From contig LJVB01000006.1 of assembly GCA_001304215.1 (NCBI GenBank), positions 1 to 46,065 on the forward strand: a stretch of 46,065 nt of DNA, in the 5' to 3' direction. Shown piece after piece: positions 23,143 through 29,264 of the stretch. The notes under the pieces were generated by a model. It ran no database searches, was not told where the DNA came from, and worked only from the letters and a program-made list of their open reading frames with translations. Source of the DNA: Acidithiobacillales bacterium SM1_46. GTDB lineage: Bacteria; Pseudomonadota; Gammaproteobacteria; Acidiferrobacterales; Sulfurifustaceae. Made by a program: the position numbers and the translations under genes. How positions within the stretch are numbered: position 1 is the first letter of the stretch; the number at the start of each line of letters is the position of its first letter.

Positions 23143-23469
23143 TTACACGCAGCCGGTCGGTTTGGGCAATCCGCCCCACTTGCAGATTAGCTTCATTGGA
23201 CCTTTCTGGAAGATCGCGTACAGATCATTGGTGCTGACGCCCATCGCCTTGGCGAACTTGCGGATCGGCGGCACCACTCCGTCGTTGTCATACATGGCGC
23301 GCGCCTCGTTGATGTAGTGCATGATCTGGTCGGTGATCTCCATCCCATCACGGCGTGCGAGCTCGCGCGCAATCTCCTCGTTCCAGTCGTCACGGTCGAC
23401 CAGAAACCCTTCGCCATCCACCTTTAGTTCCGTCATCGTCGTCATCGTTGCAGTGTCTCCCTTAAACAC
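23143..23469 (-). CDS. dsrC: DsrC/TusE family sulfur carrier protein (two-cysteine DsrC-like C-terminal arm)
   Basis: 108 aa; GFLVDRDDWNEEIARELARRDGMEITDQIMHYINEARAMYDNDGVVPPIRKFAKAMGVSTNDLYAIFQKGPMKLICKWGGLPKPTGCV; both the penultimate Cys and the Cys 11 residues upstream are present. Confidence 0.9.
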   Translation of the reverse strand: MFKGDTATMTTMTELKVDGEGFLVDRDDWNEEIARELARRDGMEITDQIMHYINEARAMYDNDGVVPPIRKFAKAMGVSTNDLYAIFQKGPMKLICKWGGLPKPTGCV

Positions 23470-23618: not shown

Positions 23619-23632
23619 TTGATGGCGGTCAA
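23619..23632 (+). promoter_or_regulatory. Candidate FNR box (TTGAT-GGCG-GTCAA)
   Basis: Matches TTGAT-N4-ATCAA with one mismatch; 58 nt upstream of the cytochrome CDS at 23690. Confidence 0.6.
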
Positions 23633-23689: not shown

Positions 23690-24166
23690 ATGGGAAGATG
23701 GCATGTGATCTACGCAAGCGTGATTGGGGCGCTGGCGATCGCGTTAGTGGTGATGCTCTGGTTGTTCGTACTGACCGGCAAGACCACAGCGGTTCCGGGC
23801 GACACACGTCAGGCGATCGTGCTCGAGCCCGCGGAGCAGGCACTGATACGCACCGAAATGCGCAGGTTCCTTGCTGCGGTACAGGCGATTATCGCAGCTG
23901 CGCTCCACGATGACCCGGCCGCTATCGCGCAGGCTGCGCGCGCTCAGGGTATGGCGGCGGCGGGACAGGTGCCCGCCAGGCTCGCCGCCAAGCTCCCGAT
24001 CGGTTTCAAGCAGATTGGCCATGGCGTGCATCACGAGTTTGACCGCATTGCCATCGATGCCGAGGCCATAGGGGACGGCAAGCTGGCGCTCTCCCAGCTT
24101 GCCGAGACGCTTAATCGGTGCATTGCCTGCCATAGCGCCTACCAGTTGGCGCCGGCGGGATCCTAA
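23690..24166 (+). CDS. Membrane-anchored c-type cytochrome with C-terminal heme motif (cytochrome c'-like layout)
   Basis: 158 aa; N-terminal TM (VIYASVIGALAIALVVMLWLFVL), mostly helical, single C-terminal CIACH. Confidence 0.7.
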   Translation: MGRWHVIYASVIGALAIALVVMLWLFVLTGKTTAVPGDTRQAIVLEPAEQALIRTEMRRFLAAVQAIIAAALHDDPAAIAQAARAQGMAAAGQVPARLAAKLPIGFKQIGHGVHHEFDRIAIDAEAIGDGKLALSQLAETLNRCIACHSAYQLAPAGS

Positions 24167-24185: not shown

Positions 24186-24199
24186 TTGACGGAGATCAA
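24186..24199 (+). promoter_or_regulatory. Candidate FNR box (TTGAC-GGAG-ATCAA)
   Basis: Matches TTGAT-N4-ATCAA with one mismatch; about 80 nt upstream of the radical SAM CDS. Confidence 0.6.
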
Positions 24200-24280: not shown

Positions 24281-24910
24281 GTGGCTGCCCAGGAAGCATC
24301 TGCGCTTGGCGAGCGTGTAGTTGGCTACACGCTGCGCGATAGTCGCTATCTGAACGTCACCAGCCGTTGCACGCTGCGCTGCACGTTCTGCCCGAAATTC
24401 AATGGCAGCTGGACGGTGCAAGATTTCGATCTGCGGTTGCGTTCCGACCCGAGCGCCGATGAATTGATCGAAGCCGCGGGTGACGTCCATGCCTGGCGCG
24501 AAATTGTCTTTTGTGGCCTGGGCGAACCGACGCTGCGCCTCTACACCGTGCTAGAGGTAGCGGCGCGGCTTCGCAAGCAGGGCGCGCCGCGGTTGCGACT
24601 CAACACGGACGGGCTTGCGAACCTCGTGTATGGACGGGATGTGACGCCCGATTTCGAGGGGAATATCGACGCCATCTCGGTCTCGCTCAATGCCCAGGAC
24701 GAGGAAACCTACAATCGTCTCTGCCGCCCAAGCCTGCCCGGCAGCTATCAGGCAATGCTCGATTTCATACGCCATGCGCGCGACTACGTGCCAGAGGTAG
24801 TGGTGACTGCGATCGATGGTCTGCCGGGTGTGGATATCGAGGCTTGTCGGGAAATCGCCGAGCGGCTCGGGGTGCGGTTCCGCCGGCGCGTGCTGGGCGT
24901 CGTCGGCTAG
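24281..24910 (+). CDS. Radical SAM protein (resembles the TatD-associated radical SAM family)
   Basis: 209 aa, GTG start; CTLRCTFC (Cx3Cx2C), IVFCGLGEPTLRL, LRLNTDGLANLVYGRDVTPDFEGNIDAISVSLNA. Confidence 0.82.
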   Translation: MAAQEASALGERVVGYTLRDSRYLNVTSRCTLRCTFCPKFNGSWTVQDFDLRLRSDPSADELIEAAGDVHAWREIVFCGLGEPTLRLYTVLEVAARLRKQGAPRLRLNTDGLANLVYGRDVTPDFEGNIDAISVSLNAQDEETYNRLCRPSLPGSYQAMLDFIRHARDYVPEVVVTAIDGLPGVDIEACREIAERLGVRFRRRVLGVVG

Positions 24911-25359
24911 CGCGGATTCGCGACTTGATCGAGGATGGAGCGTACGTCGCGCTCCCAGTGCTGGAACTGGCGCGTGAGCGCCGGGTCGCGGAAAAATGTG
25001 CCGAGCAGCGCCGGACTGTTAGTGAGCGCCAGGGTGGAATCGCCCTCCGCAAAGATCACGATCTTGAGCGGCAGGTACGGCAGCATCTCGGGATGCTGAG
25101 CGGTGAGGGCGCGCTGCTCCTCGATCCGTCCGAAGAACACGACTCGGTACTCCGCGGTCTTGAAGCCGCTCGAGGTGAGACCGATGTCAACGCGCTGCAC
25201 GCGCGCGACCTTGTAGCCGTGGTCCTGAATGGCCTGTTGCAGGTTCGCCATCGCTTCCGGAAAGGTCTGGGTGGTGCGCACCATGATGAGTTCATCGGCC
25301 CGGGCCGTTACGCCCAGTATCAGCAGTACCGCAAGTGAGCAGCTACGCAGTGCGTTCAT
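24907..25359 (-). CDS. DUF302 domain-containing exported protein
   Basis: 150 aa; signal peptide; TFPEAMANLQQAIQDHGYKVARVQRVDIGL...YRVVFFGRIEEQRALTAQHPEMLPYLPLKIVIFAEGDSTLALTNSPALLGTFF. Confidence 0.82.
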   Translation of the reverse strand: MNALRSCSLAVLLILGVTARADELIMVRTTQTFPEAMANLQQAIQDHGYKVARVQRVDIGLTSSGFKTAEYRVVFFGRIEEQRALTAQHPEMLPYLPLKIVIFAEGDSTLALTNSPALLGTFFRDPALTRQFQHWERDVRSILDQVANPR

Positions 25360-26408
25360 AGCGTTGCATCATCCAGCAGGCCGCTGTAGATCTTGAACAT
25401 CTGCTCGCACATCTCATTGAGCTCGGAATTGTTGAAGATCGCCGAGAGCCGCTTGGGATTGATGGACATCACCTGAACCTTGCCACCGTGTTCGCTGACG
25501 ACGATACGGCACGGCAGAAACAACCCTACGCGCGGATCGACCGCCAGTGCGCGATTGAGGAACTTGAAATCACAGGCATCGACGATGTATTGCTTGGGAT
25601 TTTCGCTGCCTTGCTCGACGAGGCCGGCCTCAAGTGGACCGGTACGCACGATACGCATGTTGGCGGCGCTGAAGGCTTGTTTCACGTTTTCCACAGTCTG
25701 TTGCAGGCTGTAGTTTGAGTCGCGCACGATGATCGGGGATTCCGTGACGATCACCGTGGCGCTGGCTGCTGGCGCGTGCTCGAAGCCGCGCACGAACGTG
25801 ACGATGTCGTCGATGTCGCGCTCGTGCAGTCCCTGCTTGAGAAAGGAGCTCATCGGCGTGCCTTCGCGCCCGCGCACCAGCGTTGCCTTGATTACGGCAT
25901 CGGAGGCGGCGGTGAGAAAGCCCGGGTTGTTAAGTGCCGGCGCGAGAATCGCAAGGTCGCGCGGGCGTGAAAAAGTCACACCGGTGCCGTGGCCGCCCTG
26001 ACCTTGGTCACCGTGGCAGGCCGCGCAGCGTTCGGCATAGAGTTTTGCACCGCGCGTCTTGTCGCCTTTGATGTGCCCGGTGGCGGGCGTCGGGGCAGGC
26101 TTTGCGGACCAGCTGCGGATGTGCGCGACGATTGCCTTGACCTCGGCATCCGAGAGTTGCCGGAATGCCGGCATGACGCGTCCCGGCCGGCCGTGGCGAA
26201 TGGTCCCGATGAGGTAGCGGTCATCCACCGTGGCAAGCAGATCCGGCTGTGCGAGCGGTACGCCGACGCCACCGGTTCCGGCACTGCCGTGGCAGGCGGC
26301 GCAGTGCTGGGCGTAGAGCCTCGCGCCATCGTGGGCTGCGTGGGCCAGCGGGGAAGATAGCCCGAGTATCACGACCCACAGCACAATGGGGGAACGAAGC
26401 ATGCGCAT
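25356..26408 (-). CDS. Diheme cytochrome c fused to C-terminal DUF302 domain
   Basis: Two CAACH motifs (QHCAACHGSAGTGG; ERCAACHGDQGQGG) then DUF302-like TVENVKQAFSAANMRIVRTGPLEAGL...YIVDACDFKFLNRALAVDPRVGLFLPCRIVVSEHGGKVQVMSINP. N-terminal start uncertain among several Met codons. Confidence 0.85.
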   Translation of the reverse strand: MRMLRSPIVLWVVILGLSSPLAHAAHDGARLYAQHCAACHGSAGTGGVGVPLAQPDLLATVDDRYLIGTIRHGRPGRVMPAFRQLSDAEVKAIVAHIRSWSAKPAPTPATGHIKGDKTRGAKLYAERCAACHGDQGQGGHGTGVTFSRPRDLAILAPALNNPGFLTAASDAVIKATLVRGREGTPMSSFLKQGLHERDIDDIVTFVRGFEHAPAASATVIVTESPIIVRDSNYSLQQTVENVKQAFSAANMRIVRTGPLEAGLVEQGSENPKQYIVDACDFKFLNRALAVDPRVGLFLPCRIVVSEHGGKVQVMSINPKRLSAIFNNSELNEMCEQMFKIYSGLLDDATL

Positions 26409-26465: not shown

Positions 26466-26479
26466 TTGACCAGTATCAA
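26466..26479. promoter_or_regulatory. Candidate FNR box (TTGAC-CAGT-ATCAA)
   Basis: Near-perfect FNR palindrome in the divergent intergenic region, about 60 nt from the start codons of both hemN (+) and the cytochrome-DUF302 gene (-). Confidence 0.72.
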
Positions 26480-26539
26480 TTTTATATTTGTCTTGGGCAG
26501 CGAGCGCGTTAGCGCCAACCTGTCTGAATGGCACCTGAC

Positions 26540-27928
26540 ATGAGCCAACTGATCAGTTTTGACCCCGAGCTACTGCGTCGCTATGACAAGGCCGGCCCGC
26601 GCTACACGTCCTACCCAACGGCCGTGCAGTTTCATGACGGCTTCGGGCCGGCGCGCTACCGGGCGCTGGCCGCGGCGACCAATGCCGAGGTCCCACAGCG
26701 CCCGTTGTCGCTCTACTTCCATCTGCCATTTTGCGACACGGTGTGCTTCTACTGCGCCTGCAACAAGGTGGTGACCAAGAACCGCGCACGGGCAGCGCCG
26801 TACCTTGAGCATCTGCACCGCGAAATCAGTTTGCAGGGGGCACTGTTTGATCGTGCGCGCGTGGTAGAGCAGCTGCACTGGGGCGGTGGCACGCCGACAT
26901 TTATCTCGCAGGCCGAGATGCGCGCGCTCATGGCGGAGACGCGCCGGCATTTCCAGCTGCGTGACGACGATCGTGGCGAGTACTCTATCGAGGTCGACCC
27001 GCGCGAGGTTTACGAAGGCACGCTTGCACTGTTACGCGAACTCGGATTCAACCGTTTGTCGATGGGCGTACAGGACTTCGATCCTGCGGTGCAGCGAGCG
27101 GTGAACCGCATTCAGGGCGAGGACGAAACGCTGGCAGTGCTGGCGGACGCACGTCGGCTGGGGTTTCGCTCCATCAATATGGACCTTATCTACGGTTTGC
27201 CGCGACAGACGGATGCGAGTTTCGCCCGCACGCTCGACAAGATCATTGCGGCTGCGCCGGATCGGTTGTCGGTATTCAATTACGCGCACCTGCCGCAGAT
27301 GTTCAAGACCCAGCGCCAGATCAACGAAGCTGAGCTGCCAAGCCCGGAGACCAAGCTCAACATCCTGCAACACACCATCGAGCGGCTCACCGCTGCCGGT
27401 TACGTCTACATCGGCATGGACCATTTTGCGCGCCCGGACGATGAGCTCGCTGTGGCGCAGCGTAGCGGAACGCTGTATCGCAACTTTCAGGGCTATTCCA
27501 CGCGCGCGGGCTGCGATCTGATCGGGATGGGCGTAACGTCGATTTCGCAGGTCGGTGACTCGTACAGCCAGAATCTGCGCACGCTGGAAGAGTACAGCGG
27601 GCGGCTCGACGGCAATGAACTCGCGGTGTTTCGCGGCGTCGAGCTGGATGCCGACGATCGCCTGCGGCGCGCGGTGATCATGCAGCTCATTTGTCACTTG
27701 CACCTAGACATGGCGGCGATCGAACGTGCTCACGGGATCCGCTTTGCAGATTACTTTGCCGTTGAGCTAGGTGATCTCGCGCCAATGCAGGCCGACGGTT
27801 TGGTCGACATCACATCGCAGCGTATCGAGGTACGCCCTCGTGGCACGCTGCTGATTCGCAACATTTGCATGGTGTTCGACAAGTACTTGCGTGCCCAGGC
27901 TGGTCAGCGATTCTCACGGGTCATCTAA
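26540..27928 (+). CDS. hemN: Oxygen-independent coproporphyrinogen III oxidase
   Basis: RYTSYPTAVQFHDGF, YFHLPFCDTVCFYCACNKVVTKN, HWGGGTPTFI, GCDLIGMGVTSISQVGDSYSQN. Confidence 0.95.
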   Translation: MSQLISFDPELLRRYDKAGPRYTSYPTAVQFHDGFGPARYRALAAATNAEVPQRPLSLYFHLPFCDTVCFYCACNKVVTKNRARAAPYLEHLHREISLQGALFDRARVVEQLHWGGGTPTFISQAEMRALMAETRRHFQLRDDDRGEYSIEVDPREVYEGTLALLRELGFNRLSMGVQDFDPAVQRAVNRIQGEDETLAVLADARRLGFRSINMDLIYGLPRQTDASFARTLDKIIAAAPDRLSVFNYAHLPQMFKTQRQINEAELPSPETKLNILQHTIERLTAAGYVYIGMDHFARPDDELAVAQRSGTLYRNFQGYSTRAGCDLIGMGVTSISQVGDSYSQNLRTLEEYSGRLDGNELAVFRGVELDADDRLRRAVIMQLICHLHLDMAAIERAHGIRFADYFAVELGDLAPMQADGLVDITSQRIEVRPRGTLLIRNICMVFDKYLRAQAGQRFSRVI

Positions 27929-28502: not shown

Positions 28503-29264
28503 ATGCAGAAGAAAGAGGCGGCCACGATCATCAGCATTGCAAATATCAAAGCAGCGTGTCGCGAGTGCACGCTGCGCGAGCTTTGCTTGCCGCTTGGTCT
28601 GGATGGGGCGGACTTGCTGCAACTCGAGCAACTGGTGCGGCGCCGTCGCCCGCTCAAGAAGGGCGAGTATCTTTTTCGTCACGGCGATTCGCTGAAGAGC
28701 CTGTTTGCCGTGCGCCGCGGTACCATCAAGACGACGGGACTGATGGAAGACGGGCGCGTGCAGGTAACGGGTTTTTATCTGGCCGGTGAGCTGCTCGGCA
28801 TCGATGCCATCAGCAACGATCGTCACCCGTGCAGTGCCGAGGCGGTCGAGCCGACCGAGATCTGCGAAATCCCCTATCATGACCTCGAGGCCGTTGCGCA
28901 GCAGGTGCCCGGTCTGCAACACCAGCTCTTCAAGATCATGTCGCGCGAAATCTTGCGCGACGAGCAGATGCTCATGATGCTCGGTCGCATGACGGCTGAG
29001 GAGCGGCTGGCTGCCTGCCTTCTGAGTCTGGCGCAACGTCAGCTTCGGCTTGGTGCCGTTGATGGCGAAATCCGCCTGCCGATGTCCCGCCAGGATCTCG
29101 GCGACTATCTCGGTCTTGCCCTTGAAACCGTCAGCCGTTTGTTCTCACGCTTTCAGGAAGAGGGTCTTATTGAGGTGCATGGCCGACAGGTGCGCATTAC
29201 CAATGTCGATCGGCTCCGCTCCCTTGGGGGGACCAGTGCCGGCCAGCAAAGCCAGTTCGCCTGA
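28503..29264 (+). CDS. fnr: FNR-type Crp/Fnr transcriptional regulator with Fe-S cluster ligands
   Basis: 253 aa; N-terminal CRECTLRELC (Cx2Cx5C), central TEICEIPY Cys, HTH RQDLGDYLGLALETVSRLFSRFQEEGLI. Confidence 0.93.
   Translation: MQKKEAATIISIANIKAACRECTLRELCLPLGLDGADLLQLEQLVRRRRPLKKGEYLFRHGDSLKSLFAVRRGTIKTTGLMEDGRVQVTGFYLAGELLGIDAISNDRHPCSAEAVEPTEICEIPYHDLEAVAQQVPGLQHQLFKIMSREILRDEQMLMMLGRMTAEERLAACLLSLAQRQLRLGAVDGEIRLPMSRQDLGDYLGLALETVSRLFSRFQEEGLIEVHGRQVRITNVDRLRSLGGTSAGQQSQFA

Follow-up and report, generated by a model that had tools for sequence, protein, structure and literature searches.

The window, by which we mean the whole 46,065-nt stretch of DNA analysed (contig LJVB01000006.1 of Acidithiobacillales bacterium SM1_46), contains a reverse-strand gene at 25356-26408 (-) that starts with ATG at 26408, includes its stop codon within this range, and encodes a 350-aa protein in which a signal peptide is followed by two class-I cytochrome c domains and then by DUF302. 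The predicted Sec signal peptide (residues 1-25, 26334-26408 (-), ending ..AHA/A) was assigned by reading the sequence, and the structure model has a helix at residues 6-17. The heme-binding motifs C36AACH40 (26289-26303 (-)) and C128AACH132 (26013-26027 (-)) are invariant in 81 homologues, and Met79 in GRPGRVMPAF (26172-26174 (-)) and Met186 in GTPMSSF (25851-25853 (-)), the putative distal ligands of hemes 1 and 2, are each conserved in 81/81. Such invariance of the CXXCH and Met residues would be expected of two His/Met electron-transfer hemes.

A preliminary description of this DNA had read the gene as two CAACH cytochrome modules followed by a DUF302-like domain, and had named a domain search, a structure prediction and a survey of the fusion architecture as checks; this reading of the gene is confirmed. 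Pfam matches the cytochrome part in two stretches for each of Cytochrome_CBB3 (95.6 bits) and Cytochrom_C (80.2 bits), and assigns residues 261-318 to DUF302 (PF03625; 45.2 bits, cut-off 23). Pfam and Foldseek together place the DUF302 domain (hereafter DUF302a) at residues 225-350 (25359-25736 (-)), the C terminus of the AlphaFold2 model (mean pLDDT 87.3) resembling the DUF302 structures 1Q9U (TMt 0.88) and 1J3M (TMt 0.80). The N terminus of the model resembles diheme respiratory cytochromes, and the best sequence matches of the fusion are CcoP and bc1 cytochromes. The architecture is kept in at least 80 species-level genomes, and is thus not a chance arrangement. A plasmid search returned no fusion (no record covered 80% of the query), and the matches listed were cytochromes and one stand-alone DUF302 protein.

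Directly downstream lies a second gene, overlooked in the preliminary description (24907-25359 (-)), which overlaps the fusion stop codon by 4 nt (ATGA) and encodes a 150-aa exported, cysteine-free protein (DUF302b), assigned from a structure model and homologues. Its Pfam DUF302 score is sub-threshold (17.1 bits, cut-off 23); the model, built from 78 homologues (pLDDT 92.8), matches 1Q9U (TMt 0.85) and 1J3M (TMt 0.75), which identifies DUF302b as a second exported protein of the DUF302 fold. Short opposite-strand ORFs beside the fusion (cluster 2, ∼100-190 aa) are located opposite the DUF302b gene and were set aside as gene-calling artefacts.

The pairing of the two genes is obligate. In a homologue scan with one genome per species, from which the best 80 of 147 relatives were retained, the DUF302b gene lies directly downstream of the fusion in all 79 loci with downstream sequence (the 80th locus stops 85 nt beyond the fusion), with a stop-to-start distance of -4 being the commonest. 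Within the window's order the fusion is present in 18 of 57 genomes, with DUF302b directly downstream in 16/16 homologues with enough flank, and the divergent fusions of loci L143-L146 (DUF302 part ∼32-37% identical) still have this partner. Four genomes (G095, G221, G097 and G021; loci L137-L140) contain in addition a paralogous operon of DUF302a and DUF302b with no cytochrome, whose two periplasmic products differ in that the first has three cysteines and the second lacks the DUF302 Cys motif; the DUF302b-type partner in L137 scores 34.9 on Pfam DUF302 (cut-off 23). These cytochrome-free operons show that the system is built around its two DUF302 proteins, to which the diheme cytochrome has been added as a module.

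DUF302a contains three conserved cysteines. In an alignment with 1J3M/1Q9U, Cys279 (25572-25574 (-), 81/81) falls on the Cys of their ACN/VCN motif and Cys300 (25509-25511 (-), 80/81) on that of their LPC motif; these are the two family cysteines ([A/V]C[N/D]...LPC), and their CX20C arrangement corresponds to the 21-residue spacing also found in cytoplasmic DUF302 proteins. Cys334 (25407-25409 (-), 80/81) is an extra cysteine of the main fusion clade and the cytochrome-free pairs, and is missing from the most divergent fusions (L144-L146). DUF302b has lost both family cysteines, 78/78 sequences being free of Cys beyond residue 30, so that one subunit retains the presumed ligand site while the other has lost it. 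The preliminary description had proposed a redox-active ligand or partner for DUF302 in the periplasm: the partner is strongly supported by the 79/79 loci, while a ligand is suggested by the conserved C279/C300 pair of DUF302a and its loss in DUF302b. Alternatively, C279/C300 could be a mere structural disulfide.

The region between the fusion gene and its divergent neighbour hemN (26528-27928 (+), NCBIfam TIGR00538, 623 bits) contains a predicted FNR-type box, TTGACCAGTATCAA (26466-26479 (.), TTGAT-N4-ATCAA-type), located 57 nt upstream of the fusion start and likewise overlooked earlier. Counting boxes with at least 9/10 consensus bases no more than 200 nt upstream of the fusion, such predicted sites occur in 37/79 loci, whereas for the other genes of these loci only 11/459 upstream regions have one. 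By another comparison, 38/80 were observed against ∼1.2 in Markov sequences, and scrambled palindromes of equal composition gave 0-2/80. The predicted box is enriched upstream of the fusion. About half of all loci lack it, including most of the betaproteobacterial loci beside pyrC, and 0/4 cytochrome-free operons reach a box score of ≥9/10. NO-sensing relatives of FNR use the same box, and the candidate binder may be FNR or one of these relatives. An Fnr-family regulator is encoded at 28503-29264 (+) (NCBIfam PRK11161, 255 bits, cut-off 228). The adjacency of fnr and hemN to the pair is conserved in the window's close relatives and absent from most of the 80 loci; outside the window's family the neighbours of the pair are varied housekeeping genes (pyrC, thyA/folA and others) and not sox or dsr. 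Since the hemN/fnr adjacency is local to the window's family, gene neighbourhood was dropped as a guide to function.

The named carriers of the fusion among the best 80 of 147 relatives include Thiobacillus, Sulfuricella, Thiohalophilus, Thioalkalivibrio, Thiohalobacter and Sulfuriflexus. When 276 genomes were sampled across the class, 48 of them, spanning 30 families, had the fusion, and these carriers are overwhelmingly soxB/dsrA sulfur oxidisers: by raw counts that ignore kinship, soxB is present in 45/48 carriers vs 73/228 non-carriers, dsrA in 38/48 vs 53/228, and one or both in 46/48 vs 81/228. G242 and G328 are carriers with neither gene. The window's genome encodes dsrA, soxB, ccoN and a cd1-type protein. 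Genes for the cbb3 oxidase and cd1 are commoner in carriers than in non-carriers, mostly because both accompany sulfur oxidation. Within dsr/sox genomes ccoN shows no enrichment (41/46 carriers vs 63/81 non-carriers) and nirS is weakly enriched; cbb3 was rejected as a specific partner, the association losing its significance in this subset. Nor is the pair part of a sox cluster: soxB lies on a different contig (C98 vs C150), and in G049, whose genome is a single contig, the coordinates of soxB and the pair are ∼2.7 Mb apart.

Our main reading, to which we give a probability of roughly 40%, is a periplasmic redox complex in which a DUF302 heterodimer, a thiophilic ligand and the two hemes act together under low oxygen. 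DUF302a of the fusion would pair with the separate DUF302b to form the heterodimer in the periplasm, and its Cys pair would provide a site for a soft, thiol-reactive ligand or substrate, most probably sulfane sulfur/persulfide or otherwise Cu(I). The two c-hemes would pass electrons between this site and the respiratory chain, on the side of the cbb3 oxidase or cd1 nitrite reductase, possibly in either direction, and in gammaproteobacterial lineages an FNR-type regulator would turn the operon on at low oxygen. Three observations speak for sulfane sulfur: the lifestyle of the carriers, the occurrence of DUF302 genes in sox clusters (PMC5037610, PMC11034169) and the rhodanese and TauE neighbours of DUF302 genes elsewhere. 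Cu(I) is favoured by a metal cluster in the window's own genome, described below, and by a Bradyrhizobium DUF302 gene beside ccoG that is reported to be microoxically induced (PMC6515984). A wider formulation, in which the pair is a two-protein periplasmic redox system of sulfur-oxidising proteobacteria, with the DUF302 heterodimer at its centre in a catalytic or ligand-binding role and the fused cytochrome linking it to anaerobic or microaerobic respiration, is offered a little more tentatively. Points against the main reading are the housekeeping neighbourhoods of the pair, the sulfur counts that ignore kinship and the two carriers G242 and G328, the absent ccoN and weak nirS enrichment within dsr/sox genomes, the loci that lack the box, and the possible structural disulfide.

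Three other explanations were weighed. DUF302 might instead be a copper or soft-metal module, whose Cys pair binds Cu(I) while the diheme part sets the redox state of the copper so that it can be delivered to cbb3 or nitrous-oxide reductase, or detoxified. In the window's genome a canonical DUF302 gene (L130, contig 49 of G000) is clustered with a heavy-metal P-type ATPase, a cupredoxin, a Metal_resist protein, a cytochrome c gene and a Crp/Fnr regulator, heavy-metal ATPases lie near other canonical DUF302 genes in L032, L151 and L158, and apart from the Bradyrhizobium gene beside ccoG, a DUF302 gene is located at the edge of a copper-resistance cluster (PMC7760498). However, such ATPases are present in only 2/19 phylum-wide DUF302 loci, no copper genes occur near the fusion operon, and the contexts are mixed, with rhodanese and TauE also adjoining DUF302 genes (L147, L164); we consider a dedicated copper module rather unlikely.

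The remaining two explanations give DUF302 a lesser or a different part. As an ordinary electron shuttle, the DUF302 pair would do no chemistry itself and would merely dock or dimerise, placing the diheme cytochrome on a partner such as the cbb3 oxidase or NirS, and this agrees with the resemblance of both hemes to His/Met electron-transfer hemes, with the CcoP and bc1 cytochromes as top matches, and with FNR control, which suits a respiratory carrier. A pure dock would need neither the cytochrome-free DUF302 pairs nor cysteines conserved in 80-81 of 81 homologues, and this makes a simple shuttle unlikely. A role in sensing low oxygen or in signalling, or in maturation through heme or apocytochrome thiol chemistry, might explain why hemN and fnr adjoin the pair in the window's close relatives and why a thiol-bearing domain is exported, but this adjacency is missing from most of the 80 loci and the fusion has no signalling domain, so that we regard such a role as improbable.

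Compared with known systems, the fusion shares its fold and two family cysteines with other members of the DUF302 family (PF03625; 1J3M TT1751, 1Q9U APC35924 and 7TJ1), but these are single-domain proteins, whereas the fusion is exported, carries two cytochromes c and is co-encoded with the cysteine-less DUF302b. The DUF302 protein of Acidithiobacillia sox clusters likewise belongs to sulfur oxidisers, and is assumed to be periplasmic with a possible dimerisation domain; it is reported as one 191-aa protein whose gene lies between soxA and soxB, with no cytochrome mentioned (PMC5037610), whereas the window pair is unlinked to sox. Thiosulfate dehydrogenase TsdA is also a periplasmic diheme protein of sulfur oxidisers with weak fold similarity to the cytochrome part of the fusion, but it lacks DUF302 and its catalytic heme has a conserved Cys ligand (His/Cys); the cytochrome domains of the fusion have no conserved Cys beyond CXXCH and hence no His/Cys-ligated catalytic heme, and identity with TsdA was rejected. 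The diheme cytochrome c subunits of CcoP and bc1 share the tandem class-I cytochrome c domains, and identity with CcoP (TIGR00782) was rejected in turn, the fusion scoring 67 bits against a cut-off of 179.95, being exported and carrying DUF302.

Both components of the fusion, DUF302 and the tandem cytochromes c, belong to families already known. The DUF302 and cytochrome c literature searched, which included few subscription papers, contained no description of the fusion or of the DUF302 pair in the parts available. To our knowledge, DUF302 has no known function, and it is widespread, being present in 122/249 genomes sampled from the window's phylum (about half). The fused hemes provide a built-in spectroscopic reporter that makes the function of DUF302 testable; where and when to study it is indicated by the ever-present partner gene and the predicted FNR-type control. 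If the two-protein redox system is real, it would be the first biochemical function for DUF302, and if its site handles sulfane sulfur or copper, it would fill a gap in the electron transfer of lithotrophic sulfur oxidisers at low oxygen.

Several further observations concern DUF302 genes elsewhere and the surroundings of the pair. A cytochrome c gene adjacent to a DUF302 gene recurs in L021 and L032. A DUF302 gene near soxB in G244 was considered as a fusion system and rejected, since it encodes a canonical cytoplasmic protein. PDB entry 7TJ1 is titled as the fluoride transporter CrcB of Brucella; its chains of ∼131-133 residues match the DUF302 fold, and the title is probably in error. In a Muproteobacteria genome, a locus homologous to the fusion pair lies near a 1087-aa Cas9-like protein (L039, 1567-4830 (-)) adjoining Cas1-like and Cas2-like ORFs, identified by eye. 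Within the window, a DsrC/TusE-like ORF at 23143-23469 (-), ending in CKWGGLPKPTGCV, is located ∼1.4 kb from the pair, and its two C-terminal cysteines presumably correspond to those of DsrC. Two more FNR-type boxes are present, one at 23619-23632 upstream of a cytochrome c'-like gene (23690-24166 (+)) and the other at 24186-24199 upstream of a TatD-linked radical SAM gene (24281-24910 (+)). The resulting three predicted boxes in the window, against 0.1 expected, suggest a local low-oxygen regulon.
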